This document shows positions 7,501 to 42,680 of a stretch of 64,000 nucleotides of DNA, piece after piece; positions within the stretch are counted from its first letter, which is position 1, and the number at the start of each line of letters is the position of its first letter. Source of the DNA: Hygrocybe punicea (Eukaryota; Basidiomycota; Agaricomycetes; Agaricales; Hygrophoraceae). A model generated the notes under the pieces. The model saw only the letters and a program-made list of their open reading frames with translations, was not told where the DNA came from and did not search any database. The position numbers were made by a program, and so were the translations under genes. The stretch covers positions 7,946,891 through 8,010,890 of the forward strand of contig OY744461.1 in assembly GCA_963556145.1 (NCBI GenBank), given 5' to 3'.

Positions 7501-8224
7501 CCCGATGATCCCAATCGGCCATGGTTGAAGCACTTCTGTGCTTACATCGACATCTTGGAGCATGTACCGGAGGGATGGACAACGATTAAGTGGTGGGGGG
7601 TGAGCCTGCGTCGATGCTGTGATTTCTTGATAATTTATGGGCTACTAAATTGTCATGCAGCTCAATTGTCACCGCTATCATCCTGCCTGGGCGTCACTGG
7701 CCCAGGACTACCTTTCCATCATGGCGTCTTCTGTTTCGAGTGAGCAGGCCTTCTCACAGGGTGGGATAACCATAAGCAAATGCCATAGCCGCCTGAAGGG
7801 GGACATAGTGGAAGCCTTGCAGTGTGTAAAGTTACGAGTCCCTATAAGGGAATCGTTCTATACGGTGGATTCTCAAACTCAGGGTCACACTCTAATTTGC
7901 CAAGCCGTGGGAACAATTTTTTGAAACTGTGGGAACAATTTTGAAGCCCTGGGAATAATTATGAATCCATGTGACTGGGCGGAGCTGACTGTGAGAAGTT
8001 GTTGTCCCAATCAGAAAGTACAATAAGGCAGCTGGATCACAGGCTCCAAATTGGGAATAAGTAATACTACAAATTAACATGAGTGGAAGGCGCTGAACAT
8101 TGCTCTGTGACGGGTTCAACCAGTGTCCCAGCTGTATTCTGAGGAACTGCCAGTGTAATTGACAACCATACATCAAATGTGTCTACAAATACATATATTG
8201 TGCAATATGTATTAGAATTATTTA

Positions 8225-9120
8225 CAGGAGGAACATCGGACACTGGTCAGATACGGTGAACAGTGTTCAACAAGGTGTTCAACAAGTGTTCAAGCTTCAA
8301 TCTGAAGCGTTACCATTGCATAAATAAAGGTATGTACATTATATGAGGTGTAGCTAGATTTAAAATGCACATTGAATTTATTAATGATGGACACGTCGAA
8401 CACTTGACGAACAGGCCGAACAGTGTTCAACCAGGTGTTCAACAAGTGGCCAAGCTTCAATCTGAAGCATTACAATGACATAAATAATGGTACATACTGT
8501 ATATACATTATATGAGGTGTAGATATATTTACAATGCACATTGAGTTTATTAATGATGGACTAGTTGAACACTTGTCGAACAGGCTGAACAGTGTTCGAC
8601 AAGCCACTCTACAAGTGTCCAAGCTTTAATTTGAAGCATTACAATGACATAAATAATGGTACATACTTTATATACATCATATGAGGTGTAGATATATTTA
8701 CAATGCACATTGAGTTTATTAATGATGGACTTGTCGAACACTTGTCAAACAGGCCGAACAGTGTTCGACAAGCTGTTCGACAAGTGTTCCAGGCTTCATC
8801 TGAAGCATTACATTTGCATAAATAAAGTTACGTACATTATATAAGGTGTAGCTAGATTTACAATGCACATTGTATTATTAATGATACACTTGTTCAACAC
8901 CTGTTGAACAGGCCGAAAAACCGTTCAACAGTGTTCAACAAAGTGTTCGACAAGCGTCTCGGTTTTAATCAGGGGTACTGCCATTGCACAGCCAATGGTA
9001 TGTGCAGTATATCGGATGTCTGGCAGTGGAAAGGCAAGATCTAAGTGCAGTATATCGGATGTTTTTGTGATGTAGCTACATGGGTCCAATATTGTTCAAC
9101 AAAGTGTTCAGTAAATTTTC
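8225..9120. repeat. Left tandem array, about 170-bp units with the GAACAnTTG core
   Basis: About five imperfect units of 165-175 bp. Each holds a cluster of GAACACTTGTCGAACAG and GTGTTCGACAAG motifs in opposite orientations, then AAGCTTCAATCTGAAGC, CATAAATAA(T/A)GGTA, GAGGTGTAGMTA, AATGCACATTGA and TTTATTAATGATGGAC. The core is the same as in the palindromic array on the other side of the accessory genes. The stretch from 7832 to 8225 before it has no gene, only short GTGGGAACAATTTT repeats; 9120-9465 is AT-rich and featureless. Confidence 0.85.
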
Positions 9121-9465
9121 CATATGTAATCCAAGTAACCCATTCTTACTACACAACAATATAAATTTTATATGATATGTGTGTACAATACATACATTTA
9201 TCAATTAATTCTAGGTTTTTGAAAGGTACTGAGCAAATGTCCATGCATGTTAGGCCGGACCATTGAATGAGAAATACCATATCGGTTTGAATAGTTATAT
9301 TCACAGGAAAATGATGACGACTTTTTACGATTAAATGATACTCAGATATCCAGTCACTTTATGAAACTATTTGTGTTGTTATTTCACTTGTGAACGTATT
9401 GCAGAACATAATATTATATAAAATTGATGTTCACATGTAACTGTACAACGTAATTATAATAGATA

Positions 9466-10641
9466 TTAATCGGCTTCATTCATCCTCAGGTTGGTCAAAC
9501 GTCTTCGGGTTTCTATGACATCTTCACCATCGTCTGTCAACTGGACATAACCCACATTACGTTTGATATTAATCCTGGTCATAGTATTGAGAGCAGGATG
9601 AGGTGCCTTCGTTCGACCTATCGTCGCATTCTGGATGTACATTAGTTATTATTAATTGAATTATTAGATATGTCTGGTACCTCGGTAAACTCGCTGTTGA
9701 CCAGTGCTAATGAGCGCAGATTGAGTATCATCTTAAATTTGTCGTTCTTGACTGAAACCGCCGATACCATCATCTGGACTTCTACAATGTCACCAATCCT
9801 GAAGCAAGTTGGACTGGCAGGTACAAAGCTGTCATCTATATCATTATCAATGGTCAAACTATTGTTGTGCTGAGCACTCACCAATGCCGGCCTCCGTCTG
9901 ATGTTAACTTGAAATAAAGGACCTCATTATCCGTCCCATGGAAGTATCGAGTATTGCTCATGGATGACAGGATACCTTTGGGATCGACGTTGTGTTCGAA
10001 TGGAATATGGTATGAAACATTGTCATGTCGGCAATCGGTGAAGTATCGGGTGCCAATAGATAATGCAGTGTATTCGATATAGGTGGATGACGTGAAGTCC
10101 AGCATTGCACGTTCTGGGAAAGTACGGGCCAGTTTCTGATGTAAGATGCGGAGGTTGTCAAGGTACGATTCGAACAGTGGTATGTTGAGACCTGCTATAA
10201 GGATGCTCTGACGAAGAAATGGTGTTCGACGTTCGGGTGGTCTGGAAAATATATGTATATCAATTGTTTACGATTTATGTGATGGAACAATATACCTGCT
10301 GGTGATTGGTGGTAGGTCTTTGGCCACCAATATCGCCTGTAAGCTTAAGACAAGTTCTTCATGCTCGGTGGTATCAGTACTCGGCCGTGTAAGTTTCCAG
10401 CAATTTGGTGAGTCATTATGAACTACATTGATATTCGAAATCTGCAAATGTAAAGAAACACAGCATACATCGTAAAATTTGAACATACATTTGTAGCATT
10501 GGCGAGTTGACTGTCATCATTGTCCATCCGTGTCGATATGAGATTACTTAAATGTTCAGCTGTAAAGTAGAGTTGAATGTATGAATGCCTTCAGTGGTAT
10601 ATGGACTGACATGCGCTTTTGAAATCGTAATAGGTGTCCAT
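9466..10641 (-). CDS. Helitron accessory gene A, possible OB-fold-like C-terminal segment
   Basis: Spliced gene of about 280 residues. It starts MDTYYDFKSA at 10641; a short intron (donor GTCAGT) leads into SEHLSNLISTRMDNDDS. Later introns lie near 10500-10440, 10295-10245, 9887-9835 and 9694-9632, all about 50-65 nt and keeping frame. Recognisable blocks are LRQSILIAGLNIPLF, LDNLRILHQKLARTFPERAM, IEYTALSIGTRYF, then FRIGDIVEVQM followed by KFKMILNLRSLALV. The last part has the alternating hydrophobic pattern of a beta-barrel, and I infer an OB-like fold with low confidence. I recall this family as recurrent in Agaricomycete transposon neighbourhoods but cannot name it. It is divergent from gene B with about 790 bp between starts. 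It could bind single-stranded DNA, as RPA-like Helitron partners do; that is inference. Confidence 0.7.
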
Positions 10642-11432
10642 TTGCAAAGTGGAAGTGGGATTTATAATTCAAATGCAATTTTCGACTGTTTTATCATGAA
10701 TCGTTTTCGATCGTCATCGAGATTATGGAAGTGCATCATGTTCATCCTCCATGAACTTGTGATGTCTGTATGGTGTTTGCATTCTTGTGTTGCAGATCTT
10801 CTCAATAGATTCTTATTGTTTTTCTCCATTTTATAGGACAGGATATACATCGACAGCTATCGTAATGCTTGACCTCCTTATTGTACAGCATTAAAAGGAA
10901 ACCCCTATCCATTCAGAATGATTTGTTTCCGATGCAACTGTCAGTATAGTTGATCCGATGTTTGTATTTGTTTGGAAATGAGTATATATGTCACATAAAT
11001 TTCTATTTCCGATTTGGCTGTGTTATGATCTTATGATCAGTTCCATGTGGTGACAGCTGTTTTACATTCCAAAATCCTAATTAGACTTAGTGTTTGATTA
11101 TTCTCCATACCAGTAATCCATATCCATGTTGTTGGATGATGCTGAGCGTAACAGCTGGTCAATCATGGGTTCTACATCATGGGGAATGTCCCTGATTTTT
11201 TTTTCATTTTTATGGCGCTATGATCCGAATAGTTCTCCTTCAAACCATCAACAGATGTAGTTTTCATACCTGCCGGTGTGATCTCCATAAACGAGTTCTT
11301 TATTGTATTCGATCTGTCTCAGTGTACTTAAATAGCGATGAGAGCGCAATGGTATCGTCCACATCCGACCCTTCATTCATCTACGATATCTCGCACAGAT
11401 TCATTCCTCGCCCTAAAGCTCTTATCTTTGCA

Positions 11433-13453
11433 ATGGCTCCTAAGAAGTCTGTGAATGTGAAGACTCAGTCCAAAGCTCGATCAAGCGCCATTTCGTATGT
11501 ATATTTATTTTCATGTATTGCTGCTCGTTCTGAATAAAGGTCATACTGTTGTTTCTAGGAAGGGTAAGAAGGTCACCACCACCAAGCCTGTCGATGATGA
11601 AGTGTACGTGTTTATTCCAATATTCTGATTCATCCACCATGACTAGACCACCCAGTAGTATTGCCAACTCTGAAGACGAAGACGTTATTAGTGTTCATAG
11701 CGTCGCTAGCATTGCCAAACCCGTCTTGTCTATGAGGTGTGTTTCATGAATTGTATTTTCAGATACTAGTGATTTACTTCAGTAATATAGGCGGTCCAGG
11801 AAGACCACCAATAGAGCAAGGTTTGCAAGTTCAATTTATACTGTTCATGCAAACTAATATTCTTTATATTCAGTGGTAAAAGGCGGCATGCTTCAGAGGA
11901 AGACGAAGACAGGTCAGTAGCTCTAAATAATGTCTTTTATATTTGTGTATTCTTTAATCGCTTTACATAGTAAATTCTCTTCTCCATCGAAGAAGACAAA
12001 GTCAAACCAGCATCAATTACATGATGAGGATGACGACAGCGACGAAACATTCATGTGAGTTGGAAATTGAATAATTGGTCATATGTTAGACATGTCGTAG
12101 GCCTATTGCAAAACTCGAATTCGGTTCTAAGAAATCAAATGCAGATAATGGTCTTCGGTATGATACTTCATATGATTCTTGTCCTTCATATATTAATAAA
12201 TGATCAGCAACTCTGATACATCCATCAAAACCATGAAGGCGATTTCCTCCAAAGTCACAAAGACTACCCGTCTTCATGATATCAGTGACGACAATGTTTC
12301 CAGTAGCGATGATGGAGCTGTGACATATGCACAAAACCAAATCACCAGGTACATTACATCTGTCTATTATTTTTTTAATTGATGTCCTTGCTTAGCATAC
12401 ACTCTCCAAACACGGATGAGTCTGACATTGGTACAAGAGACCCTCAGTTGGTCGATACATATAAGGACTGTGTCAACATTAAGTAACTATTCGGTTTTAT
12501 CTTCTTAAGCAATGCTTAATATTGAATAGGGCCGCGGCCATGGTATCTTGGTCTAGTGCTATAGGGAATGGCAATCCTCAGTACAGCGATGTTATCAGCA
12601 ACATTCGCAAGGTCAACCAAAAGTAAGCTGTCAGCTAGGACTTTATGGTTAAAGACAATTCACATCGCATAACAGTTTGCTGTTCTCTGCAGTGACCTTT
12701 GTTCGATCTGGCAAGTACTCGAATCTTTCTCGTGACGATCCCGCCAATATCTCTACTGGAGCATTTGGGCGTAGTTTCTTCCACTCCGTTGCTGGTGCCA
12801 TCCCAACGATCTTCACTTCTGTCATTCTAGTCGATTCATGCTTCCTTGATGAGCCAAAAGTTGGTGGGAACACGAAACCGATCAAAGTCATCCAAGGGGC
12901 TTTACTCTCAGGAGAATGGGAGCGGTATGTTGGCGCCATTGGAATGGTCACTGGTGAGGCGGAATTTCGTGCACAACTATATAAGGACTTTCTGTCCTTC
13001 TCGACGACAGCGGCAAGTGGGATGGATGCATCTCCTAGCAGTGAGTATACATTCAATGCTCTGTTATCAATCCTTTCTCATATTCAATAGAAGCTTCCTC
13101 TTCGAAATTTGTGCAGTCTAGTCCTTTTACTCGACGTCCCGCTCCATCTTACCAAAAGACTGCGCTGTCATTCCATGACATTGGTTAGTTTTATTCTCTC
13201 TCACACAATGTCCTTGGTTTTGTTTTTGATGCCTGTATTCATAGTCCCAATCTATGATGCCCGGAAAGTTAAAACGGACTTTACCGACACCCTCAAAATA
13301 CTTCAGAAACTCCCCCACTTTCCAGGCGATGTTCCTGCAGAATCGTGCGTTGTGGTCGGCCACACGATCAATACCTTCAAACGCTCTGATGATTTGTTGA
13401 AGAGTATTTCCCTAAATGTGCAGTGGGTGATGGTATTGGGCGTCTCTCATTAA
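11433..13453 (+). CDS. Helitron accessory gene B, basic/acidic N-tail plus conserved C-terminal domain
   Basis: Spliced gene with many tiny exons. The N-terminus starts MAPKKSVNVKTQSKARSS and is a low-complexity Lys/Ser/Asp tail suited to nuclear localisation and DNA contact, spread over exons of 25-110 nt separated by about 50-nt introns between 11,495 and 12,660. The folded part begins at about 12,670 (LLFSAVTFVRSGKYSN) and includes GALLSGEWERYVGAIGMVTGEAEF. After introns at about 13040 and 13182 it ends VPIYDARKVKTDFTDTL, LPHFPGDVPAESCVVVGHT and LNVQWVMVLGVSH. I recognise the general pattern of an unnamed basidiomycete family but no assigned function. No frame disruption is visible in the exons I could join. 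It ends about 175 bp before the convergent end of gene C. Confidence 0.65.
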
Positions 13454-13628
13454 CTTGTCGTCTTTCTCGTCATGAAACTAGTGTGCCATGCAGCGTGGCC
13501 TATTGCCAATTCTCTTTATGTTGCCTTGAATTTGTAATGTACCTATCATTGAAATCAAAGCGTTTCGTGCCTCTCAGACATGAGATCCGATTTGTGACAT
13601 TTAAAGTTGACTAATGTACAAGTGAAGT

Positions 13629-15447
13629 TCAAAAATATGAGTATGCATTTGTAATGTCTACAAGCCATTTATAAAATACCGCCGAAAATGTGTCCGCAAA
13701 AGATCCGATTGGTGCCCGAGCGGATTTCGCGCCTTGCTTCATGTTGGACCACAAGCTGCAGGTGTGATACCGTTCGATCTCGTTCACGAAGTAATTGACA
13801 TTGTTGGTGTTTGAATCAACAATGAGCGAAATGTCCATGCGACAGAATACACTCATTGAAGGTTTCCCACCAATCAACATCGACTCTATGGCATACAGCC
13901 CCTCGTAGGTGTCTCGTACGAAGCCGAAGAATTGCTGTCTTGCTTGATCTCGAATTGCAATGGAGCCGTGATCCGGATTGCAAACATCGGTCTTCATGAG
14001 CATTCCCTGTGCTTGGAACGATCTTGGAAAATGCCAAAAACTCGTGAACATGTAATGCGAGACGGAGGGCATCTGCCTACCTCAATTCCTCTAACGTATA
14101 GAAGGTCGTCATAATATCCCACCTCCATGATTTGCTCTCTTTGTTGTAATGCGTATGGACCGTGTAAATGTCCCTTCCACCTAACAAAAACACTCGCCAT
14201 TCTCCGATCTTGGCCAGCGGCTCAACATAGGTTTGACCGAACCAACGTGAACCGGGGACCTCACAGTTCAGGCGCATATAGTCCCAATTCCGCCTTGGAT
14301 CGCCCGGGAACAACACATGGTGACCAGTGTCACTATGTGTTCGCTTCAAAACAATGTTCGGTGGAAACGGTTCACCGTCCTTCAGCAGCCTTGATTGTGG
14401 TCGCATCGTGTGCATCCTTGACAATGCGACATGGAGCAAGTTTTGCATCTGCGTCCATTTCGAATGCACGGTGTTCATTTGTTTCGGTGGTGGCCACACC
14501 TGAATCGTTCGACACAGCTGGTCAATTCCGGCCAAGAATGTCGACACGTTTTCGACCGTTATACCATATTGATTACCACTATAGATGACATTCGAATTAA
14601 CCGAATTAAAAAGAAAGGAAACTCGGCAAAAATGTTTGACACGCTTACATATAGGACATTCCCATGTCCACACCACCAAATACGCAATCGGTGGATTTGA
14701 ACTTATTCCATGTTATGTTCGACCCCGGTGAGTTGAGCATGGCATGAGCGAACTCCGGCCAAAACATGTATTCAACATTGAAGCGGCGTATTGCACTGTT
14801 GGGCTCGTCACACCGCCAGTGGTGCATTCGCATAGCAACATAAACCTGGAATTGGAAAGTATTCTTTAGCGATAATTCTCCATACATTTTTAAAATATAC
14901 ACACCCATTCCTGCATGCAAACGAAATATCGCGTCTTGTGCGCCTTGAGATTGTGAATATAACCATCGAGGTGCGAGACGGTTTCGTACTCGTCTTGTGA
15001 AATCATAACATTGACGAATGCAAGATCATTGGTTGCAGCGGCTTTGCTTGTAATACGGGTGGTGGGATCAAGAACAAAGATTATGTGGAAAACGGGATCG
15101 GTCCTGACGGACTGTGTAATCGTGCTCATGGCTGCATCCTCCATCTCCACATCAGAAGTGGGATCTGGTGTATTGGACGCTGTCGATGGCAACAACGCAA
15201 GTTCCTCTTCAGTAGCATTTCGAACACCTATGGAATTTTCTGCACCCTTCCGTCCAATACAGCTGGATAGAGGACAGGTACCGGATGCGATGCAATTTGG
15301 ATGCTTGCTTGCGGATCCACAATGGCGCTGACAGGAACTTCCTTCCTTTTTCCAAAGGAGAGTTTGTGTCTGGATCGAGAGGCAGTTTCGTCCTGGACAG
15401 ATGTGGCAGCACACTTCGTAGCCAACTTCCTTGCGAGATTTGGGCAT
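13629..15447 (-). CDS. Helitron accessory gene C, ATP-grasp-like protein with Cys-rich N-terminus
   Basis: Four exons, about 545 residues. The N-terminus (15447-15290) is rich in Cys and His (CCHIC, GRNC, CQRHC, NC, GTC, SSC), suggesting metal binding. The middle contains HIIFVLDPTT and YETVSHLDGYIHNL. After introns at about 14905-14852, 14664-14600 and 14084-14028, the protein shows IVLKRTHSDTGHHV, WFGQTYVEPLAKIGEWRVF, GGRDIYTVHT and finally SVFCRMDISLIV followed by NYFVNEIER. The order Lys-containing strand, lysine or arginine loop, R-x-D, then N-E-x-E resembles the nucleotide and metal sites of ATP-grasp enzymes (for example the R-x-D and NEIN motifs of D-Ala ligases). The fold assignment is inference from motifs; substrate unknown. 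All splice junctions keep frame. Such a gene is not a usual Helitron component. Confidence 0.65.
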
Positions 15448-15719
15448 ATTGAAGGTCTAACAGATCAGATTATGTTAGTTTGTAAATTCAACGGGGTTCA
15501 GAATGGTACTGTGATATACCGGTATGTGTTCTATAACTCGGGATGTGTTGTGAGATGGTGAGTGTGAAGGAGAAGAAGAGTTAATCAAGTTTGGATAATC
15601 GTTTTGACTATCAATGATATCAGATTCGTGTCAGGTGACAACGGCAACAATGATGCTCCCCCGGTTGGATCGGCAAGGGTTGGTTGTGCACCCATATTTG
15701 TCTTTAGAATGAATAACAA

Positions 15720-16415
15720 TGTAACGACCTGCCGAACACGTGTCGAACAGGCCAAACACTGTTCGGCAAGTGTTCGGTTAGTCATATGCATCTTGATGCG
15801 TTAATCAATGTCCGTATGGCTTGTCGAACACTTGTCGAACAGTGTTCGGCCTGTTCGACAAGTGTTCGACAAGCCGTAGCTACGTTAATATATATTACAC
15901 TTAATTTATTGACGTAGTAATGACTTGTCGAACACTTGTCGAACAGGCCAAACACTGTTCGACAAGTGTTCGGCAAGTCAATGCTACGTCAATAAATTAA
16001 GTGGAACATATATTAACGTAGAAATGGCTTGTCGAACACTTGTCGAACAGTGTTCGGCCTGTTCGACAAGTGTTCGACAAGTCATTGCTACGTTAATATA
16101 TATTCCACTTGATTTATTAACAAAGCAATGACTTGTCGAACACTTGTCGAACACTGTTCGGCCTGTTCGACAAGTGTTCGACAAGCCATAGCTACGTTAA
16201 TATATATTACACTTAATTTATTGACGTAGCAATGACTTGTCGAACACTTGTCGAACAGTGTTTGGCCTGTTCGACAAGTGTTCGACAAGTCATTGCTACG
16301 TTAATATATATTCCACTTGATTTATTGATGTAGCATTGACTTGTCGAACACTTTTCGAACACTGTTCGGCCTGTTCGACGAGTGTTTGACAAGCGTTCGA
16401 TAATCCATTGTCTAT
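15720..16415. repeat. Array of about seven near-perfect palindromes
   Basis: Units of about 103 bp. Each has a roughly 60-bp inverted repeat, CTTGTCGAACACTTGTCGAA meeting its complement around a central GTGTTCGGCC or GGCCAAACAC, and a 40-bp AT-rich spacer ending GCTACGTTAATATATATT or its mirror TTTATTGACGTAGC. Spacers are themselves partly inverted relative to each other. Centres lie near 15757, 15850, 15955, 16055, 16160, 16265 and 16372. CpGs are intact, so the array is young or maintained. It lies between genes C and D inside the Helitron. The open frames seen through it are by-products of the repeat. Confidence 0.92.
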
Positions 16416-16754
16416 GTTAATGACCATACCATTATGTATATTAACATCAAGCATGTTCGATCTCTTTGACGTGTCACAAGTTAACAATATATATTTGTAT
16501 AGCTACATGACAAATAGCGCTTATCGACATTTTAAGGATGTATTACGGCACAACTTCAGAATCTGTTTGGTTGTATGTTATTTGTACACCGCGTGTCCGA
16601 TCAATGTATACAATGCTGAACATGTGTCGTTGACAGGTCATCTGACTTGGCCAGTTGCTTCATAGGCTAGGGCATCGACCCTGACATCCAACGTTTTCCG
16701 TTCCCCTCGTTTTTTCCCTCAGACGCCCACCACAAAGATTCTACTACAGCTACC

Positions 16755-18669
16755 ATGTCCTTGCCAGTCGTCAAAACTTCGACTCCCACCGTCAATCCCG
16801 TGGCTTTCAAATACTGGCCTGATGCGCCGCCCAAAAAGCTGCAGGAGCTGCATCGCATCTTCCAAATCCAGTACATGGTCCCACCGAAGATTCCGGCACC
16901 CAACAAGGAATCCGGCACCATTCCCGTCTTCTCTCGTAATCTCTATGTACTGAAGACCCACCCTCACGATGCCACCGCCCGAGGCGAGTTATGGCGGGAA
17001 ATGCCCGAACGATACGAGGAACCGCTGCGTCGATTGATTTATCAAATGGATATATACATCTATGCGACAGCAGCCGTCGCATACAACAAGGCACCCCACT
17101 ACTCGCCGGACTATGTCAAAAACGATAAGGAAGAGACCGATTTACTTCGGGATTACCTCAAGTATACCGACACCGTCATGGACGAAATTTGGGCAGAGGT
17201 TTTGGTCGCAAAACGGGCCAACGAGGTTGCCCGTGACTGGCGAAGCAAGATTTTCGACGATTGGCTCCTCAAAGAGTTTTATGTCGGCAAGCATTCTCCA
17301 TCGGCATTGATTCAACATGGCGCTGTTAGCACCGAGACCATGCCAGAGGACCTCGGTGAGTATATATACGCATTGGCAGACAAATGGATTATGACATCTG
17401 GCATCATAGATTGGGCGAAATACGACGAATCTGTGCCAGCATGGCACAGCGGAACCTCTGCAAATTGGTCGTTCGGTGGGCTTCCGGACGCCACAAAGCT
17501 CGAAATCATCGGTCATGTTATTGCTTGGTGTAAAGGACATAGTGTCCTCGTCAATGCCGATGTGGCGGAGGACGATGAAGGTATGATCTATAATTACATG
17601 TGTGAATGTGCTAATAATATAATACATTTGCAGAAGAGCCGGTTCCCCAGGGCAAGGGCAAGGGCAAAGCCAAGTCAAAATCGGTCAAAAAACAGAAGAC
17701 ATCCTCCGCTGGTTTGTACAAATTTTTAACCATAGCAGTGTATAGATGTACTGAATATTCAGGTGGCGCAGACAATTCGTCCGAGAAGGACAAAAAGAAG
17801 CCCAAGCCCAAGCCCAAGCCCAGTAAGTACTTTCATTGTCTGTGATCATCACACACGGTAACTCCTCATCATCACAGAACGCACCGTGAAGTCCAAACCC
17901 GATGACGACGCTGACGGTGAGTTATTAAATTCTAAATATCAAGCTTATAACGCATATTGTTCATTCATGCATAGACGATATCAAGATGGAGGAGGACGTA
18001 GCCCCGGTAAAGAAGAAACGATCAAAGGCTCAAATGCGTATGTTACTCACTTTGCTCTGAATAATGCACTGACATCTCGCAGTCGCTGTTGAAATTGCGC
18101 CGTCGCGCGGATCCAAGAAATCGGAATCCGAAAAATTGACAGTGGAAGTTAAACCACCCGTCTCCTCCGAGTCGGATGATGTGCCACTGGAATCCGCAAA
18201 GTTGGGCTTGTTAGGACCAGAATGGGAGGGGTTGTTGCATTCTGATGACGATGTAATCATGCACGACAACGATGGACCTCCCAAACCCATACAGGACTCT
18301 CTCAGCGGCGATCACGAGGACGGCGAGACAGCAAAGAGGAGGAAGTTGGATCTGGCATCGGAGCAAGCCGGTATTATCACAGAAAGGCTCCAGCCAGCGA
18401 AGCCTCCGAAGAAGTCTCCAACTCCGGGTATGCACATCACACTCTATATAGATTTCACATCTGATCTTATCAATATCCTAGGATTCCGTCCCAATACGCG
18501 TGCATCGTCACGCCATCAGTCGTCGACCCCGGCAGAGCCAGGCGGTTTATCAATGGATGTAGATTGGAGCAATATCGTTCCTCACGATATCCTAGTCTCG
18601 ATTACGCCGAGCCAAACAAGGCCTTCATCTCCCAAGGCGTCAACATCTAAACTGGACCCTGGCCCTTAG
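16755..18669 (+). CDS. Helitron accessory gene D, unknown protein with charged C-terminal tail
   Basis: The first exon starts MSLPVVKTSTPTVNPVAF and runs about 275 codons without a break, to an intron at about 17581. It contains FSRNLYVLKTHPHDATARGE, a long helical-looking segment (EMPERYEEPLRRLIYQMD), EVARDWRSKIFDDWLLKEF and WSFGGLPDATKLEIIGH. After it come several short exons encoding Lys/Pro-rich and Ser/Asp-rich linkers (KPKPKPKPK, KKKRSKAQM, KRRKLDL), ending at 18669. The tail looks nuclear and disordered. I do not recognise the folded part. The gene is in the same orientation as the helicase gene and 950 bp upstream of it. It could instead be a captured host gene. Confidence 0.6.
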
Positions 18670-19138
18670 TTTCAGTTGCTGTAAGTCCTCTTTTTGTGGA
18701 GTATTAATTATATTTGACTAAAGACACTTTTATCTCAGTCGTTGATTTCTGGTAATCTGTTGGTAATCTGTGCCCTCAACGTCCTCCTCTACCGCCATTC
18801 TTTACATTTGTACAATATCTGTACATTTCTTTTTTTGCTCTATTGAAAATGGCTTGTGTTACTTTCCTATGACCATAACAATTGAGTAAGATAATAAGTA
18901 TACACAGATATCACATAAGACATCGATCTTGGTGACTGAAAACCTGTTTGCCTAAATTAAGTGTATTAATTTCAGTTCATGTTTGTCAGTACAGCCACCA
19001 CAGGTAACATGAGAAGGTAACATGAGAAGGACAACCTTGGATTACTATGACTCGAGTTAATGAACATTCAAATTGAATATATGTAATAAACCAGAACTGC
19101 CAACTTTATGGACCAATTAAATGGGGAGACACATAGGA
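18670..19138. other. AT-rich spacer before the helicase gene
   Basis: No gene is visible. It contains a 13-bp tandem duplication (GGTAACATGAGAA twice, about 19003-19028). Base composition becomes clearly more AT-rich from about 18700, matching the helicase gene rather than genes A-D. Confidence 0.5.
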
Positions 19139-19328
19139 GACGGATGAGGAATTTTTGCCATCAAATAATATTGAGATCTCCACTCAATTATTTTGTTGCT
19201 ATCATAAGTCCGAAAATGTCGAAAACATAACGTTATCCACTTTTTACAACGTTTTCGGACTTATGATAACAACAAAAATAATTGAGTGGAGATCTCAATA
19301 TTATTTGATGGTAAATTCCTCATCCATC
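19139..19328. repeat. Long inverted repeat (fold-back), arms about 75 bp
   Basis: The left arm GGATGAGGAATTT...CATCAAATAATATTGAG...CATAAGTCCGAAAA is mirrored almost exactly by a right arm ending AAATTCCTCATCCATCC, around a loop of about 35 bp containing AACGTTATCCACTTTTTACA. Arm mismatches are few. It lies about 290 bp before the helicase start. It could be a small fold-back element or part of the helicase 5' leader; no flanking duplication was found. Confidence 0.85.
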
Positions 19329-19618
19329 CCCTGTGACAACTGTAACAAATCCCCCTCATATGGTGGCAAGCATAACCATCAATCCAAGGAAAGCTATGAC
19401 TATTCAGTACCGGAATATTACGTATGTTACAAAAACATTCAATTGAATAAAAACATTATAAAGCTTCAGGCACACCTTATGATGTTTTTGGAAGAGCTTA
19501 CAAATAAGATAATGTCATATGATCAATCCAATTGTGTTAATTGTTGTTCATGATCCAAACCACTTAACTAGTTAAATAGATACATGGGCGGTGCTTTCTC
19601 TTACTATCACCAATCCAC

Positions 19619-22600
19619 ATGAATCTCCACGATATCATGCATGTCTGCATTGCGGTATTGACTTATCTACATTTCCTTGCAAACGCAACCATATTTCCAC
19701 AACTATGCCAAGACCAACTTATGTATATCTCTCTTGAACCAATATCCGCTCCTTTGATATCGGCATTGACCCAAGAATTGGGTGTTTTTCAAAGAAAACT
19801 CATAGAACATGAGTTTGCCCCAGATCAGGGCGATGCAACAATATTGATGCAAATAAATGCAACACAATGTGTAAAGTTCATTGAAATAACAAAAGATAAC
19901 TTGACGGTCGATCCATTATTCGTTTGGACTACATTTAAAAATAGCGCGTTCAAAATGCAATTACGTTCTATTCAATATGACAGAACATATTTCTTACCTC
20001 CTAAATATCTCTTTGCTTTGTATTGTCTTCTCAAACCTATCACTGTTCAATGTCGTTGTAAAATGATCAATGCATTGCTAATGCGATCGCTATTGAGACG
20101 ACATGATTTCAGATCATATTTGTTTCATTGTATTACTAGTTCTCTATCACATGCAACGTTGCTGTGGACCACACTATGTTTCATAATACGGCATAGCCGT
20201 TCAAACATAATTATGTTCAATTTGAATTTATTCAGAAACTTGTTTAAATCTTTATATATAAATTCCGTCCATAGATATGACTACATTGGTGGTGGTAAAC
20301 GAATACCAACATTCAAGTTTAGCTTTATTCAATCTTTCATGCTACCGTCTAATAATATCAACCATGATTCCGACATACTATTTGAATACGTGGATCATGT
20401 TGATCAACAGGCTGCCAACATTGTATATGGAGATAGAAAAAAATATTTGTGGGTCAAAATGCCTTTGCATGAACTTCTGCCAAAGTTGACGGTGAAGGAT
20501 ATTGGTGAAATAACAACAATACATGGTATATATTTGTCAAAGACATTACGAAGATTACATGGACAAGATCTATCTGTGGCATTAATGAGGCATAATTGTT
20601 CAGCTTGTGATACTCATGTTTCTATTTTTCATGTGCATGATATTAAATCAAATAAAGATAAGTGTAAAGAGTGGTACAAAAGACAACAAATGACAGAAAC
20701 ATATGAGTGCGAAACAGAAGAAACTCAGACTAAAATGAAAGAAGAATTGGACAAGTCAGATGAGCAATCATTTCCTCCTCCTCCACCATCTATTGAATTG
20801 AAGGAAACCATAATCAGCAACTGGTGCAGAGATACATCACCTGAATGTTTTCAAGAAAGTGGGTGTGCCGTGTGCGGTCAATTGGTTGCATTGAAGAACA
20901 TGTCTTTATTGTCAAAGACAAAGGTTAATCTGAAAATATTAACTAGAGAAAATATGGGAATCACAAGATGTGAACGACATCATTGTTCTGATCCAATAGA
21001 GGATATGAAAGGTCCAGTGCTAGATGAGACATGTAAATGGATATGCAAGCCATGTGTGCTCAGTCTAAACAAAGGCCAAACTCCCAAATATGCTTTGGCA
21101 AATGGACTTTGGATGGGAAGAATTCCTGCACAACTTCAAAATCTAACATTTGCTGAACAACTTTTGATTGCCCGTGTTCGTCACAACAAATGTATTGTTC
21201 GTGTCTCATCTGGGATGCATAAAATGAAAGCAAATGCCATCATGTTTCAAAACCCAACACCAAAGATATATCAACGGTTGCCTCCAACAATTAAAGAACT
21301 TGATGAAGTGCTAGCCTTCATTTTCACGGGTCCTGCCAGACCAACTCCAGAAGACATGGAGCGAACGCCTTTATTGGTTCACCGAATGCGAGTTTCTGCA
21401 GCTTTAGAATGGCTGAAATTGAATCACATGGATTACTATGATTTAGATATCTCCTATGAAAATCTAGCACAATATCCAGATCATGGAATTCCTGTTGTGG
21501 TTGCATATCGACCAGCAGACACAAATAAGGAACCGGAAGCCACTAGTGCATTTGACAATGAAGTGGAAGATGGTGTTGAAGATGGGCCTTGTCCCTTTGT
21601 TGTTAGTGGTGTAACTGGCGAAGATCTAGATATTACAAGTCCAAAAGCATTAATAGCTAGAGCCACCAAGCACTTGATAGATGACCATGGTGGTGTTCTT
21701 GCCATAAGCCATGCTAGAAATCCAGAATCATTCTTTAATAATCCTCAATTATATCCTATGATGTTCCCCTGCCTATTTCCATATGGCTTGGGTGGTATTA
21801 GCAGCATAGACAAGGATGTTTTAAGCATCAGTGATATGATGCACAAAAGACATCTCCTGATGTACCATGACAAAAGATTTCAAACCGATCCCTATTTTCC
21901 ATTGATCGCATTCAATCAAGAACAAATCAAAGACAGTACAACCGGAGGATATTTGTTGACTAATAAACATAATTTCAACGATATTGCAAATCGCCTGATG
22001 AATATCAATACAGCTGTTTTGGATGACCTCTCTAAAAGATTATCTAGAGGTGATAGAGTCAAACCAGATACATCAGAAGAGAAAGCATGCTATAAACTCA
22101 TTTCTGATCTGGATCATGTAGCTGGTCAGGTCAAAGGTTCAATTACTAACAAGAAATATATGCGAAATGAGATTTGGTCTCTGATATCCTATATTGGTGC
22201 TCCGACTTGGTTTATCACTTTTGCACCTGCAGACATCAATCACCCACTATGCTTATATTATGCTGACAACAAAGAAAAGTTTTATCCTAAACTACGTCTA
22301 CCCCAGGATTGTTACAAACTAATTGCAAACAATCCAGTTGCTGGAGCCCGCTTCTTTCACTTTACTACTGAAATGTTCATCAAACATATATTAGGAATAA
22401 ATGAATCTCATCCTGGCCTGTATGGAAACACATCAGGTTATTATGCAACGGTAGAGGAACAAGGACGTCTTACCTTGCATCTTCATATGCTGTTGTGGAT
22501 AAAGGGATGCCTTACACCTCAGGAAATACGTGACAAAATTATGGGTGAAAATTCTGACTTTCAGAAAAGATTGGTGGAATATTTGGAAAGTTTGTGTGTA

Positions 22601-25600
22601 GGACAATTCATGACAGGTTCTAAAGATGAGGTATCACAGAAAATGGAACAGACAATGTCGAAACCTGAATATCAACAACCAACATGTGTCATGCCAGATC
22701 CACCATCATATAATTGTTCCATGAATTGTCAATATCACAACAAAAGATCAACATGGTGGCAAAGGTTTCAGGATGTTGTAGATGATCTTTTATTGCGATT
22801 AAATGTACATAACAGGCATGATGGCAAAAAAAAGCCATATTGTCTTAATTCGAAAGGTGAATGTAAACGACGATTTCCCCGTGATATCTTTCAACAAACC
22901 TTTGTAGAACCTAACACTGGTGCTCTCAACCTCAAGCATGGTGAACCTTGGATGAACACGGTGACACCTGAAGTTACATATATGCTACGATGCAATTCTG
23001 ATGTGACCAGCTTATTATCAGGTACTGCTATAAAGGCCATAGTTGCATACATAACAGATTATATTACAAAATTCTCCTTGAAGACCTATAGCATTTTTGA
23101 AGTGATAAAAAGTATTTTTGATAAGAATTCCGAAATGATTGGTGGCGACCTGAAAAGAAAAGACAAAGTCAGAAAACTGTTTACACAAATAGTCAATTCA
23201 CTCACCTCCAAAATGGAAATTGGTGCTCCAATGGCTTCATTATATGTGCTTGGAAATCCTGATCACTACACCAGTCATAAATTTGTGCCATTCTTTTGGA
23301 GATCTTATGTTAAAGAGGTTATCAGTGCATGGTCTGATGAAGAAATTCCCAATATATGTGAAGACCAAGATAATGCACAAAAGGTTGTTATTGGTAAGAA
23401 TAATGGCGCATACATTGGACTTTCCAAAGTAAATAATTATATGTTCAGACCAGCCTTGTATGATAATGTATCACTGTATGACTGGATACGTCTTGCCACT
23501 ATGGAACCAATGAAAAGACGCACCAAAACAAAGACCAAAAGGGCCAGAAGAGAACCAGTGCAAAACCAAATTTTTGACAATCTAGGCTGTGATGATTTGT
23601 CTGACTCTTGCACTGAACCTACTAATGTTGACTATTCCAGTGATGACAACTTGTCTGATGTCGTTGATAATGATATACTCATGGAGATAGATGAAATTCT
23701 AAAACCTGATAGTTTGAATAAAAATGCAGGCCCAGAAATAGTTGATAAAACAAATGAAGTTGATCTTAATAAATTGACAAAATTTGAAACTGATTATACT
23801 TTACATCCCAATCATCCACAATATCTTACCCACCATGCCAAAATGAAAGGAAATGATCCCTTCATAGTTCCTAATTTTATTCCAAACACTTTGCCAAGGG
23901 CTGACCGTGGTGATCGGGAATATTATTGTTGTACAATGTTAACGTTTTTCAAGCCATGGAGAAGTGGCAAAGAACTCAAATGTAAATTACAAACATGGGA
24001 TAATGCTTTTGTAGACCATGAGTTTTCTAAAAGAGAGCTCGAGATCATGAAATACTTTGGTCTGCGGTATGAGTGTTTGGATGCAAGAGATGATTTCTCT
24101 GCTAAACGTCAGAAGAATAATACTGCAGATATAAGGTATTCATGGGCGACCTCAAACGGTCTTGATGAACTGGATGACATGCACAATGCTGAATTTGCAT
24201 TTAATGGCGACGACTTCAACAACAACATTGATGAAGACAATAATGACACAGAAATACTCCTGAAACTTGGTCAAAAAGGACAAAAGAGGAAAGATCAAAT
24301 GCTAATAGCTGAAAGAACTTTGAAAAGGTCAGGATGGCTCGATGATTGTATTGATGGTACCCCAGATATAGGACCTTTGATACCTATAGAACCACCTGTA
24401 GTACAATCAGCAAAATTTTGGAGAGCTGCAGTCCTTGCAAAGAAAAAAGAAATCATCGATGACAGAAATAAAAATTTACCAACAAACACAGCAACCATAG
24501 ATAAATTGGGAAATTTTCAATATAATGATGTCAAGATAGTGGATGCAGCATACATCAACCATATGTTTATTCCTGCAAACAGAGCTGATCGTCATCTTAT
24601 TGATATAACTATCAATGATTACAAGTTGAACACTGACCAAAAGAGAGCATTTCATATCATTGCCAATCACTCTACGTTGATTAATAGTTCTGATAAGCTA
24701 CGCATGTATCTTGGTGGGATGGCAGGCACAGGGAAATCACAAGTCATCAAAGCATTGACTAGTTTTTTTGGTAAACACAACGAAAATCATCGATTTGTGG
24801 TTCTTGCACCAACCGGTGGTGCTGCTGCCCTTGTAAATGGATCCACATATCACTCCATTCTTGGAATTAATCAGGGAGGATCATCTCGTTCCCTTGCACA
24901 AGTACATGCCAATCTTGATGGTGTGGATTACATTTTCATTGATGAGGTGTCAATGTTATCTTGCAGAGATATGTATAAAATCAGTGCTCAGTGTGCAAAA
25001 GCACGTGGTGTTTATGATGAACCCTTTGGTGGCATTAATATGATATTTGCAGGAGATTTTGGCCAACTTCCACCAGCTATGAGTGGTGCTCCTTTATACT
25101 CTGGAACCGTTGGTGTCCAAATCAATTCCAGTCAAACTATAGCAAATCAGGAAGCGGCTATAGGCAAAGCTCTTTGGCATCAAATAACAACAGTTGTTAT
25201 ATTACGTGAAAATATGAGACAAACCAATCAGTCAGAAGAAGATGTCCAACTGAGGCTTGCTTTGGAAAACATGAGATACAAAGCATGTACTCCCAAAGAT
25301 ATTGCATTTCTTCATACTCGTGTTGCAGGAAAAAGTCCAAATGATCCAAAATTAGCCCAAAAGAAATTCAGGAATGTGTCAGTTATAACTGCATTGAATG
25401 CACAAAAAGACAAAATCAATGAACTTGGTATTCAACGTTTTGCTGCTGAAAATAGGAGACCATTAACATCATTCTATTCCATAGACAGATGGAATGATCC
25501 TACTAGTTCCAATAGCAAAAGAAAATCTCATCACATGTCAACAATTTTGGATCCTATTCGACACACAAAGATATTGGAACCCTCACTCCGAAAGCTACTT

Positions 25601-27355
25601 TGGAGCCAACCACATGCATCATCCTCTGATCATATACCAGGAAGATTGGACTTATGTGTAGGCATGCCAGTGATGCTGAGAAACAATGATGCAACGGAGT
25701 GCTGCATTACCAAAGGAGCAGAGGGCGTAGTTGTGGGTTGGCAGAGTGCAATAGGTCCTGAGCAACAAACTGTACTGGACACTTTATTTGTCAGATTATT
25801 GAATCCTCCAAAAACAATTAACATAGAAGGACTTCCTGAAAATGTGGTTCCGATTACAAAACATGTCATGTCCACCATGTGCTCATTACCGAATGATGAT
25901 GTGATATCTTTGTCAAGAGAACAAGTGTTGGTACTGCCTAATTTTGCAATGACTGATTATGCATGTCAAGGACGTACTCATCCTAACAATGTAGTTGACC
26001 TCAGTAGTTGTAGAAACCACCAATCCTATTATACTTGCTTATCAAGAAGTGCTTCTGCAGCAGGAACTATCATCATGCAAGGCTTTGATCCTAAAGTAAT
26101 TACAGGTGGTGCTTCTGGATATCTCAGGCAAGAATTCAGAGAATTAGAACTGCTTGATGAGATTACCAAACTGAAATATCAAGGACTCTTACCAGACCAT
26201 GTCAAGGGAGATCAGCGAAATTCTATCATTGATCAATTTAGAAAATGGAAAGGAAAGTCATATATTCCAAAAAACATTCATCATGCTATTGCATGGAAAG
26301 CCACGGAGCAACTAAATCAATACACAACACAGCCCTCTCCATGGCAATTAATTAAACCTACGAACAAAAATCAAAAGGCAGATTTCAGAAACCTCAACTT
26401 TGTTCCTGCAAAAGGAACTGTTCCAATCACTGTCACTCATAAAAATTCCACAGCCAATGTATTGCAAAATAAAAAACGAAAATTACAACAAGTTGTAAGT
26501 TCATCTTCCATTGTGAAAAAAAGACGAAAAACAAATACTATTGAATTAAATGAACCAAAAGGGTTTATATGGGATGCGCAAGATTGGAGCTGTGCTTATG
26601 ATTCACTCTTTACAATATTACTAGCAATATGGAATGAAGATCCATCAAGTTGGAAAAAAAGATTCAATAGCATTAATGAAATATTAAAGATTTTGAGCTT
26701 AGGATTCAAACGATCCAAGAATCACACAACAGATTTAGAAACAGTTAGAAATACAATCAGACATTTATTGCATCAAGATAAACCCGAAATATTTCCTTAT
26801 GGTCAAGTTGGCATTGCCATAAGTGATTTGGCCCATTATATAATGAAAGCAAATGAACCAATGACTTCAACTTGTCTTAAATGTATGAATTGTGAAAACA
26901 TAACCATTCTGGAAAATGATAGATGTGATGCCATCTTTCATTGTTCATATTCATTTTCTGGAACCATCTCAACATGTCTTGCTCAAATCATAGTTAATAG
27001 ACAACGGCACAAATGTCAATTGTGTTGGGGAGAGATTACTAAATTTATTGCATTTAACAAAATTCCACCTCTAATCATGTTTACAGTTGACTCTATTGAG
27101 AATTTAATAATTAGTCAAGTTATAAACTTGTCAATAGATGACATATCCACTGCTTACACATTGAGAGGAATTGTGTACTTTGGTGATGCACATTTTACTG
27201 CCCGCATATTCATCAACAGTATGGTATGGTTTCATGATGGTATATCAACCAGATCAATTTGCATTAATGAAGGTGATATAGATAACTTTTCAAATATTAA
27301 TTTATTGTCATGTAATGGTAATAATGCTGTACTGTTTATATATGCTCAATCTTAA
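19619..27355 (+). CDS. Helitron Rep/helicase with C-terminal cysteine-peptidase-like domain, 2,578 codons
   Basis: Single-exon rolling-circle replication initiator and helicase. Approximate residues: Cys-rich segment with CAVCGQL (415); HUH nuclease motif LHLHMLLW (955) in the context EEQGRLTLHLH; the two-tyrosine motif AYITDYITK (1142); PIF1-type helicase Walker A GGMAGTGKS (1700), Walker B FIDEVSM (1772), AGDFGQLPP (1809), TDYACQGRTHPNNVVDLSS (2112) and YYTCLSRS (2142). The C-terminus adds a domain with DWSCAYDSLFTIL (2319) and GDAHFTARIF...VWFHDG (2522), spacing and sequence recalling the Cys and His boxes of ubiquitin-specific peptidases. All nuclease and helicase residues are present with no interruption, which is rare for a Helitron this size. 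The start is uncertain; later in-frame ATGs exist. The gene is strongly AT-rich. It would nick and unwind DNA for rolling-circle transposition. Confidence 0.93.
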   Translation: MNLHDIMHVCIAVLTYLHFLANATIFPQLCQDQLMYISLEPISAPLISALTQELGVFQRKLIEHEFAPDQGDATILMQINATQCVKFIEITKDNLTVDPLFVWTTFKNSAFKMQLRSIQYDRTYFLPPKYLFALYCLLKPITVQCRCKMINALLMRSLLRRHDFRSYLFHCITSSLSHATLLWTTLCFIIRHSRSNIIMFNLNLFRNLFKSLYINSVHRYDYIGGGKRIPTFKFSFIQSFMLPSNNINHDSDILFEYVDHVDQQAANIVYGDRKKYLWVKMPLHELLPKLTVKDIGEITTIHGIYLSKTLRRLHGQDLSVALMRHNCSACDTHVSIFHVHDIKSNKDKCKEWYKRQQMTETYECETEETQTKMKEELDKSDEQSFPPPPPSIELKETIISNWCRDTSPECFQESGCAVCGQLVALKNMSLLSKTKVNLKILTRENMGITRCERHHCSDPIEDMKGPVLDETCKWICKPCVLSLNKGQTPKYALANGLWMGRIPAQLQNLTFAEQLLIARVRHNKCIVRVSSGMHKMKANAIMFQNPTPKIYQRLPPTIKELDEVLAFIFTGPARPTPEDMERTPLLVHRMRVSAALEWLKLNHMDYYDLDISYENLAQYPDHGIPVVVAYRPADTNKEPEATSAFDNEVEDGVEDGPCPFVVSGVTGEDLDITSPKALIARATKHLIDDHGGVLAISHARNPESFFNNPQLYPMMFPCLFPYGLGGISSIDKDVLSISDMMHKRHLLMYHDKRFQTDPYFPLIAFNQEQIKDSTTGGYLLTNKHNFNDIANRLMNINTAVLDDLSKRLSRGDRVKPDTSEEKACYKLISDLDHVAGQVKGSITNKKYMRNEIWSLISYIGAPTWFITFAPADINHPLCLYYADNKEKFYPKLRLPQDCYKLIANNPVAGARFFHFTTEMFIKHILGINESHPGLYGNTSGYYATVEEQGRLTLHLHMLLWIKGCLTPQEIRDKIMGENSDFQKRLVEYLESLCVGQFMTGSKDEVSQKMEQTMSKPEYQQPTCVMPDPPSYNCSMNCQYHNKRSTWWQRFQDVVDDLLLRLNVHNRHDGKKKPYCLNSKGECKRRFPRDIFQQTFVEPNTGALNLKHGEPWMNTVTPEVTYMLRCNSDVTSLLSGTAIKAIVAYITDYITKFSLKTYSIFEVIKSIFDKNSEMIGGDLKRKDKVRKLFTQIVNSLTSKMEIGAPMASLYVLGNPDHYTSHKFVPFFWRSYVKEVISAWSDEEIPNICEDQDNAQKVVIGKNNGAYIGLSKVNNYMFRPALYDNVSLYDWIRLATMEPMKRRTKTKTKRARREPVQNQIFDNLGCDDLSDSCTEPTNVDYSSDDNLSDVVDNDILMEIDEILKPDSLNKNAGPEIVDKTNEVDLNKLTKFETDYTLHPNHPQYLTHHAKMKGNDPFIVPNFIPNTLPRADRGDREYYCCTMLTFFKPWRSGKELKCKLQTWDNAFVDHEFSKRELEIMKYFGLRYECLDARDDFSAKRQKNNTADIRYSWATSNGLDELDDMHNAEFAFNGDDFNNNIDEDNNDTEILLKLGQKGQKRKDQMLIAERTLKRSGWLDDCIDGTPDIGPLIPIEPPVVQSAKFWRAAVLAKKKEIIDDRNKNLPTNTATIDKLGNFQYNDVKIVDAAYINHMFIPANRADRHLIDITINDYKLNTDQKRAFHIIANHSTLINSSDKLRMYLGGMAGTGKSQVIKALTSFFGKHNENHRFVVLAPTGGAAALVNGSTYHSILGINQGGSSRSLAQVHANLDGVDYIFIDEVSMLSCRDMYKISAQCAKARGVYDEPFGGINMIFAGDFGQLPPAMSGAPLYSGTVGVQINSSQTIANQEAAIGKALWHQITTVVILRENMRQTNQSEEDVQLRLALENMRYKACTPKDIAFLHTRVAGKSPNDPKLAQKKFRNVSVITALNAQKDKINELGIQRFAAENRRPLTSFYSIDRWNDPTSSNSKRKSHHMSTILDPIRHTKILEPSLRKLLWSQPHASSSDHIPGRLDLCVGMPVMLRNNDATECCITKGAEGVVVGWQSAIGPEQQTVLDTLFVRLLNPPKTINIEGLPENVVPITKHVMSTMCSLPNDDVISLSREQVLVLPNFAMTDYACQGRTHPNNVVDLSSCRNHQSYYTCLSRSASAAGTIIMQGFDPKVITGGASGYLRQEFRELELLDEITKLKYQGLLPDHVKGDQRNSIIDQFRKWKGKSYIPKNIHHAIAWKATEQLNQYTTQPSPWQLIKPTNKNQKADFRNLNFVPAKGTVPITVTHKNSTANVLQNKKRKLQQVVSSSSIVKKRRKTNTIELNEPKGFIWDAQDWSCAYDSLFTILLAIWNEDPSSWKKRFNSINEILKILSLGFKRSKNHTTDLETVRNTIRHLLHQDKPEIFPYGQVGIAISDLAHYIMKANEPMTSTCLKCMNCENITILENDRCDAIFHCSYSFSGTISTCLAQIIVNRQRHKCQLCWGEITKFIAFNKIPPLIMFTVDSIENLIISQVINLSIDDISTAYTLRGIVYFGDAHFTARIFINSMVWFHDGISTRSICINEGDIDNFSNINLLSCNGNNAVLFIYAQS

Positions 27356-27370
27356 TATTTGTTCTCCTGC

Positions 27371-27427
27371 TAAAAAAAGGAGGGACGAGTAATATGCCAT
27401 GCAAAGCAATGGCCCACACCCCACTAG
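27371..27427 (+). other. Helitron 3' terminus: subterminal repeat, hairpin and CTAG
   Basis: TAAAAAAAGGAG runs into AGGGACGAGTAA, the inverted partner of the 5' terminus at 7832. Next comes a hairpin with stem GCCATGC/GCATGGC-like pairing (one bulged A) and loop AAA, then CCACACCCCACTAG. T follows at 27428, where the host hAT coding frame resumes. Confidence 0.85.
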
Positions 27428-27846
27428 TATGCCATCTGGCATGATTTGTTATATTGAGAGCCAGCACCATCATCAATGATGGAGGTGGATGGGGATGGGG
27501 ACCTCGAGGAGGATGACAATGAAGGAGAGTCTTCAGAAAGTGAGGAGAAGGTGTGGGATGAGCTCATTATTGATGATGAGGATGAGATTCTGACTGCTGA
27601 GGACTTTGATTGATTGTTATGACTGGTCATATCAATACTGATTTTTTTTTGGACTCTTTATAGTAAGTTACACTTAAGAGATGAATTCAATACAAAAGCC
27701 ATGGCCTGGGCCAAGCCAAGCTGGAGCCAAGCCGGAGCCATCAGCCATGGCTTGGCCTGAGGTTTGAGAAAGCCGGAGCCCTCTTGGGCCAGGCCAAAGC
27801 CAGGGCTTTTGGGCCAAGCTGGGCTGTGCACATCACTAGCAATACT

Positions 27847-42400: not shown

Positions 42401-42647
42401 GCTGTTGCTGCTGCTGCCGGCATTGCTGCTGCTGCTGCTGCTGCTGGCCGTCGTGGTGGTGGTTGCCGTTGTTGTTGCCGCCGCTGATGGTGAGGTTGGG
42501 GCTTGATGCACCAGCAGCAGCTGCTGCTGCTGCCGGTGTTGCTGCTGCCAGCGTTGCTGCTGCTGCTGCTGCTGTTGCCGCCGTTGCTGCTGCCGCCGTT
42601 GCTGCTGTTGCTCCTGCGCTCCTGCTGCTGCTGCTGCCGCTGCCGGC

Positions 42648-42680
<33 letters not shown>

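Follow-up and report, generated by a model that had tools for sequence, protein, structure and literature searches.

The analysed stretch of Hygrocybe punicea DNA (64,000 nucleotides, hereafter the window) very probably contains one complete and probably autonomous five-gene Helitron of about 19.6 kb, in which four accessory genes (A to D) are standing parts of the element, not late captures from the host, and whose families would differ most simply by the exchange of blocks. The genes are spliced and lie in the order A(-), B(+), C(-), D(+) and Rep/helicase(+) (Table 1). The sequence searched for copies and relatives was the element's own genome (92.2 Mb in 42 contigs), and all copies described below come from this one genome.

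Table 1. Features of the Helitron in the window, in order of position
Feature	Position	Strand	Remarks
Complete Helitron, 19,596 bp	7832..27427	+	Ends common to ten whole copies; empty sites L048 and L049; genome-wide termini
5' terminus TTACGAGTCCCT, one arm of the asymmetric terminal inverted repeat	7832..7843	+	5' terminus recurs genome-wide
5' subterminal tandem array, 169-bp period x 4.2	8258..8946		TGTTC(A/G)ACA motifs
Gene A, 243 aa	9642..10527	-	Spliced model; four exons (10527-10489, 10441-10296, 10241-9882, 9828-9642)
Gene B	11496..13453	+	Firm 3' part 12692-13040, 13091-13183, 13245-13453 (216 aa); 5' exons from ~11496 by eye, uncertain
Gene C, at least 437 aa	13629..15129	-	Four exons (15129-14905, 14845-14649, 14578-14081, 14022-13629); 5' end may reach ~15447
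Central array, 104-bp period x 5.6	15816..16393		Inverted TGTTCGACAAG motifs; between divergent genes C and D
Gene D	16755..18669	+	Seven exons (16755-17355, 17410-17580, 17634-17711, 17763-17822, 17878-17916, 17975-18037, 18083-18669)
Rep/helicase open frame, 2591 aa	19580..27355	+	DUF6570, Helitron_like_N (HUH), PIF1 helicase
Extra Rep C-terminal region	26564..27352	+	Cys / CxxC-CxxC / His-Asp pattern; motif positions by eye
3' inverted partner of the 5' terminus, AGGGACGAGTAA	27381..27392	+	Repeat comparison with shuffles
3' terminus CCCACTAG with a short hairpin (GCCAT..ATGGC, by eye), then target T	27396..27427	+	Sequence reading; genome 3' ends

Termini, target site and genomic copies

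The left flank of the element belongs to a hAT frame (Pfam Dimer_Tnp_hAT, E = 3.9e-11). Read across the junctions, this flank ends in ...GTGTAAAG, the element runs from TTACGAGTCCCT to CACCCCACTAG, and the right flank opens with TATGCCATCTGG. In two insert-free hAT relatives (L048 and L049, read over 101 bases each and drawn from 16 genome matches to the left hAT sequence, window excluded), ...GTGTAAAG is joined directly to TGTGCCGTC(C/T)GG, where TGTGCCGTC is homologous to the right flank of the element, indicating that insertion occurred between G and T without duplication or loss of target bases. A search for such empty sites had been proposed with the original prediction; both sites that it yielded show a clean insertion, agree with the claim that the hAT frame is interrupted with nothing lost or gained, and settle the 2-nt ambiguity previously noted in that frame.

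Insertion between T and T is ruled out by the empty sites, and also by the base to the left of the insert, which, among the 12 distinct 5' ends located by an exact 8-mer, is A seven times and G five times (copies c4 and c6, which lack the exact 8-mer, and L004, L006 and L007, which lack a forward match, are not counted). The start of the element is fixed by the empty site as TTACGAG and is not the canonical 5' TC; starts of this type, with at most one mismatch, occur at 328 ends in the genome, and the 12 ends picked by the 8-mer provide no independent test of the start. At the opposite end, the predicted CTAG before T was recovered throughout, with T following CTAG in all 12 distinct 3' ends read, which were located by the terminal motif. 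When aligned, the window copy and all ten other copies finish in the CTRR-type end CACCCCACTAG. The inverted partner expected next to the 3' hairpin is also present, pairing with 10 of the first 12 bases of the element. When the last 60 bases were shuffled 2000 times (mononucleotide shuffling), a match this good arose in 9 cases. The hairpin itself (27396 to 27413) is a 5-bp stem read by eye, and folding of the last 38 bases returned a weak, different structure.

Both termini recur at hundreds of places in the genome. With at most one mismatch, the first 20 bases have 328 matches and the last 22 bases plus T have 354, and the reversed-pattern control gave 0 for each. Matches to the left junction (window 7732 to 8000, 269 bases; best 40 of 380 candidates) begin abruptly, 35 of the 39 non-self matches starting at query positions 98 to 101, which correspond to window positions 7829 to 7832, and the other 4 starting at 89 to 96. 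Among the 41 matches listed for the right junction, 39 of the 40 non-self matches end at query positions 171 to 175 and one ends at 197.

Ten copies were fetched whole after manual pairing of left and right junction matches. Their alignments to the window element start at 7824 to 7832 and end at 27428 to 27435, overshooting the element by at most 8 bases where the flanks match by chance. Long stretches of these copies are mostly 97 to 99% identical to the window element, some near the arrays being 94 to 95% identical, and the number of array repeats varies from copy to copy. The whole gene set is carried by 8 of the 10, barring insertions (found in c2, c13 and c14), small array losses and one inversion (of 17751 to 18637, in c4). 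Copy c16 has lost 17208 to 24337, the part from D to the middle of Rep. Copy c15 has lost 8785 to 15726, such that the two arrays are fused and the A-C block is gone; since this copy keeps both ends, A to C may be dispensable in cis. The finding of ten copies at different sites in this genome, all with the same two ends, upholds the original prediction that other copies would share these ends and that A to D, both repeat arrays and the Rep/helicase move as one unit. Copy c4 (L026-L028) sits inside another member of the lineage, and its flanks match element positions 15149 to 15440 and 14147 to 15147 at 93 to 94%.

The pairing of exact ends was restricted to contigs C1 to C3, where the exact-match lists look complete (67 5' ends and 95 3' ends, among 100 listed each). 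On these contigs, 56 of the 67 5' ends are followed, within 60 kb on the same strand, by an exact 3' end (50 different 3' ends in all, as some serve more than one 5' end), compared with 10 of 67 for the other strand and 9 of 67 for the upstream direction. The two ends are spaced by 19.3 to 20.5 kb in 14 pairs, most of the rest, beyond the short ones, being longer, and gene A lies no more than 5 kb downstream of 41 of the 67 5' ends. In 11 of the 56 paired cases, the 5' end is only 1.6 to 5.1 kb from the 3' end (e.g., C1:1965959-1969761 and C3:8074293-8075939), and these pairs are probably non-autonomous derivatives sharing the ends of the element. Copies in which the 5' end is followed by a different interior had been named as a sign of two nested elements, but those encountered are these short forms and sister families of the same gene order, not nested elements.

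The five genes

The four accessory genes announced by the original prediction are borne out as spliced models, in which frames were joined at fungal-type introns. Gene D gains one intron recognised later (17356 to 17409, 54 nt), indicated by stops or a change in length at this place in related copies, and the C-terminal half of its product is basic and acidic. Neither Pfam nor NCBIfam assigns A, B or C to a family, PHROGs returned a single chance-level match among them, for C, and the only Pfam match for D is a low-complexity one (E = 0.37). No DNA-binding domain was recognised by Pfam in any of the four products. An ATP-grasp enzyme was considered for C from motifs seen by eye and was rejected, as it was unsupported by Pfam, NCBIfam, PHROGs, a PDB sequence search (which gave only weak, unrelated matches) and Foldseek with an AlphaFold model of part of C (no match at E <= 0.001). 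For A, an OB-fold was entertained speculatively, from the look of its motifs. No relatives of C were confirmed in viral contigs or prokaryote genomes, and tblastn detected no relatives of A to D elsewhere in the window, beyond the element.

Matches to all five genes are numerous in the genome. Those listed comprise the best 150 of 608 candidates for A, 150 of 727 for B, 113 of 523 for C, 140 of 336 for D and 126 of 758 for Rep, counts that are lower bounds, further exons of the same genes having been dropped. Among the best 150 A matches, B is in place for at least 111, C for at least 90, D for at least 98 and Rep for at least 84, as compared with 0 to 5 in the single-pair controls (same distance, other strand). 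The joint counts, which are without a control of their own, are at least 51 A matches with B, C, D and Rep in order and at least 135 with one partner or more. About 16 relatives of gene B (73 to 78%) appear, by eye, to be without a listed A, C or D partner (e.g., C1:483525-508539 and C3:7756815); one of them, at C1:493633, lies within a pair of 5' and 3' ends 25 kb apart, and a further, longer family may exist.

In the Rep/helicase frame, a two-tyrosine HUH Rep is joined to a PIF1 helicase (Pfam Helitron_like_N, 1.9e-32, and PIF1, 2.8e-20), with the HUH motif HLHMLLW at residue 967, the tyrosines within YITDYITK at 1157 and the PIF1 motif GMAGTGKS at 1713. No endonuclease family was detected in the frame by Pfam at E <= 1. 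Across the best 126 of 758 candidate matches, the HUH region is 98 to 100% identical, and 34 of these 126 have an open frame of at least 2588 aa whose matched part contains no stop; this near-identity and the intact frames suggest that the Rep half has spread recently. The pattern in the extra C-terminal region is one that we take to be reminiscent of ubiquitin-specific peptidases. A peptidase of this type was nonetheless not confirmed, its motifs being eye-read, with no Pfam family for the region and only weak, unrelated matches in a PDB sequence search; the AlphaFold models were poor both here (pLDDT 35.8) and for the part of C (pLDDT 48.4).

A second, unrelated Helitron Rep/helicase is present on the minus strand of the window (36489 to 42038; DUF6570, Helitron_like_N and PIF1, split over several frames); the three parts of it that align with the first Rep/helicase show 26 to 33% identity. 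High-GC sequence adjoining it contains a CTG-rich repeat of about 520 bases (42292 to 42812). Farther along the window are an HMGL-like frame, apparently a host gene (53362 to 54231), and an accompanying alpha/beta hydrolase frame (50459 to 51103).

Divergence among families and origin of the accessory genes

A sister copy on contig C40 contains the five genes in the order and orientation of the window element and has the same 3' terminus. Comparisons among families involve this one copy, without its 5' end in the stretch read, and part of one copy of a closer family, the C2 subfamily. Judged from listed positions, a second copy of the sister type (C1:1243914-1263358) spans 19.4 kb and has both ends, between which A, B, D and Rep follow in order. 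In the C2 subfamily copy, B, C and D are in order within the 9.9 kb read, and the listings place the 5' end, A, Rep and the 3' end over 21.5 kb; stops interrupt its frames once in C and five times in D, and some of those in D fall within the intron recognised later.

Genes A to C of the sister copy are diverged from those of the window element (about 66% identity by blastn). Synonymous and nonsynonymous differences (pS and pN) are 0.81 and 0.16 for A (201 codons, no stops), 0.70 and 0.11 for B (214 codons), 0.73 and 0.17 for C (430 codons, no stops), 0.27 and 0.08 for D (533 codons), and 0.06 and 0.02 for Rep. An apparent stop in B of the sister copy lies where the model overruns the end of the gene by 27 bases, and the residue-mapped count has none. 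In the frame-shift control, both shifted frames of every gene have stops and pN exceeding pS. Residue-mapped dN/dS is about 0.06 for B and C, and dS is beyond correction for A. Near-saturated at synonymous sites, yet strongly constrained and fixed in order, A to C look like old, selected parts of the element, as opposed to accidental pick-ups from the host. Constraint is weaker within the family, where the nonsynonymous/synonymous ratio of distinct differences, pooled across the ten copies, is 0.91 for A (with only 7 synonymous changes), 0.47 for B, 0.33 for C, 0.38 for D and 0.35 for Rep, along with 26 distinct nonsense changes in total, as expected for copies that decay after insertion. For A, these within-family data lend no support to selection.

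The divergence from the sister copy is uneven along the element. In 300-base bins, identity is 51 to 72% in A to C (the first bin, which runs into a stretch of N, is excluded), 80 to 93% in D, 61 to 73% in the interval between D and Rep, and 89 to 100% in Rep and the 3' end. The steps in identity, at 16.5 to 16.8 kb and 18.9 to 19.5 kb, fall in intergenic intervals, of which the C-D interval holds the central array, and the synonymous differences step likewise (0.70 to 0.81 in A to C, 0.27 in D and 0.06 in Rep). Such unevenness is unlikely to come from a single divergence time but can result from conversion of the Rep half or from block exchange; it points to families having traded A-C, D and Rep blocks. 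The deletion in c15, which fused the two arrays and removed A to C, suggests recombination at motifs common to both arrays. In the sister copy (L045 and L046), a second B-C stretch, 99.9% identical, precedes A, and a doubled A-B-C order also appears among the listings at C34:144658-157280 and C35:1919580-1932609. Tandem duplication of A-B-C in the sister copy was set aside as evidence, its junction containing a run of exactly 200 N, probably a scaffold gap.

The motif TGTTC(A/G)ACA is common to both arrays of the window element, and 34 of its 35 occurrences in the window, counting both strands, lie inside the element, within 8264 to 16342. The full motif is absent from the stretch of the sister copy that was read, outside which lies the 5' array region of that family. 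The C-D interval of the sister copy (731 bases) has 6 of the 13 CGAACA/TGTTCG half-sites of the stretch, compared with 0.54 expected, an excess reached in 0 of 1000 dinucleotide shuffles. This distribution fits a putative binding site that changes together with the A-C block of its family.

In the reading we favor, the Rep/helicase would mobilise the element by rolling-circle strand transfer, a chemistry predicted from its HUH and PIF1 domains, and insertion would occur between A or G and T without target duplication, in keeping with the anatomy and the empty sites. Genes A to D would be standing components of an old lineage of elements; in the three families examined, they would lie in fixed order and be subject to purifying selection, with the same two ends around them. 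These families would differ most simply by block exchange, with breaks in intergenic intervals, one of them holding the central array, leaving Rep and the 3' end nearly identical across families and the A-C block ancient. The accessory genes would most likely serve the element's own expression and survival, and the inverted TGTTCGACAAG arrays would be putative binding or promoter sites for one of them.

Helitrons are known for gene capture, and the accessory genes, with their host-like introns and no transposase-like domain, could be host genes that were captured and amplified as passengers, their conservation reflecting selection in the host before several independent captures. We regard such an origin as improbable, because the same four genes, with the same order and orientations, occur in families that are near-saturated in A to C, and the same four-gene capture would be needed twice. 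Passengers of this kind would be fragments of host genes specific to a family, whereas A to D keep the same order in diverged families and are under purifying selection; moreover, 135 of the best 150 A matches have a partner from the set, and no host-like copy was identified among those read in this genome. The greater homogeneity of the Rep half between families, far above that of A to C, could also arise if a separate Helitron, comprising the Rep half, had inserted into or beside a cargo element. The probability of such nesting is very small: the ten whole copies, all beginning at the 7832 end, speak against it, the listed exact 5' termini include none in the window besides that at 7832, no copies starting near 19 kb with a CTAG end were seen, and, judged from the listings, ends and gene order are unchanged in the C2 subfamily and in the sister family.

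A further alternative concerns the role of A to D, which might be selfish accessory genes countering host silencing, with the arrays as family-specific putative binding sites, by analogy with the VANC proteins of Arabidopsis VANDAL elements, which act in anti-silencing and have family-specific binding sites. The motif arrays are placed suitably for such a role, at the 5' end and between the divergent C and D, and the sister C-D interval, enriched in the half-site but with the full motif absent, suggests that array and A-C block diverged together. The failure of Pfam to recognise a DNA-binding domain in A to D speaks against it, and we hold this possibility only tentatively. A more general proposal, about equally speculative, is a multi-gene Helitron lineage in which the non-captured genes A to D and their matching arrays might form an element-encoded control system, A to C having co-diverged with the array motifs, for anti-silencing or self-regulation, and Rep being swapped between families by recombination at the arrays, such that one Rep could drive several families whose control blocks differ.

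Relation to known elements and significance

On the basis of its Rep/helicase, its target behavior and its 3' CTAG end, the element is a Helitron, of a five-gene, 20-kb, modular variant. It has in common with canonical Helitrons the HUH Rep with two tyrosines, the PIF1 helicase, the 3' CTRR end and insertion 5' of a T without target-site duplication (L048, L049 and the 12 of 12 3' ends). It differs from them in its TTACG 5' end (that of canonical Helitrons, or Helitron1, is TC), its insertion between A or G and T, its length of 19.6 kb, its four conserved accessory genes and its extra Rep C-terminal region. The resemblance to Helitron2/Helentron elements drawn by the original prediction stands in one respect, the asymmetric terminal inverted repeat, in which the 5' terminus matches a site just inside the 3' hairpin at 10 of 12 bases. 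It does not extend to the target, since Helitron2/Helentron elements insert between T and T and the left base here is A or G, or to the endonuclease domain that follows the helicase in Helentrons, for which Pfam provided no match.

Other mobile elements with accessory genes share fewer features. Pleurotus HELPO elements are fungal Helitrons with captured genes and likewise have extra genes between Helitron ends, but in the present element these genes are shared, fixed in order and selected across families near synonymous saturation. Some plant Helitrons encode RPA-like proteins and, similarly, keep an accessory gene with Rep in an autonomous element; here, there are four such genes, with no Pfam match, to RPA or otherwise, for A to C and none meaningful for D. 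Starships of ascomycetes are also large fungal mobile elements with several accessory genes, but they have a tyrosine-recombinase captain, whereas this element has an HUH Rep/helicase, a constant set of genes and over 300 termini.

The cargo of Helitrons is usually regarded as captured pieces of host genes without a role in transposition. In this element, which has more than 300 termini in one genome, four genes are held in order and constrained, three of them over near-saturating synonymous divergence, raising the testable question of what Helitrons require besides the Rep/helicase. Four uncharacterised protein families, with 113 to 150 scored matches each in this genome, gain a likely home and role, and the lineage is a clear candidate for the exchange of modules between rolling-circle transposons.
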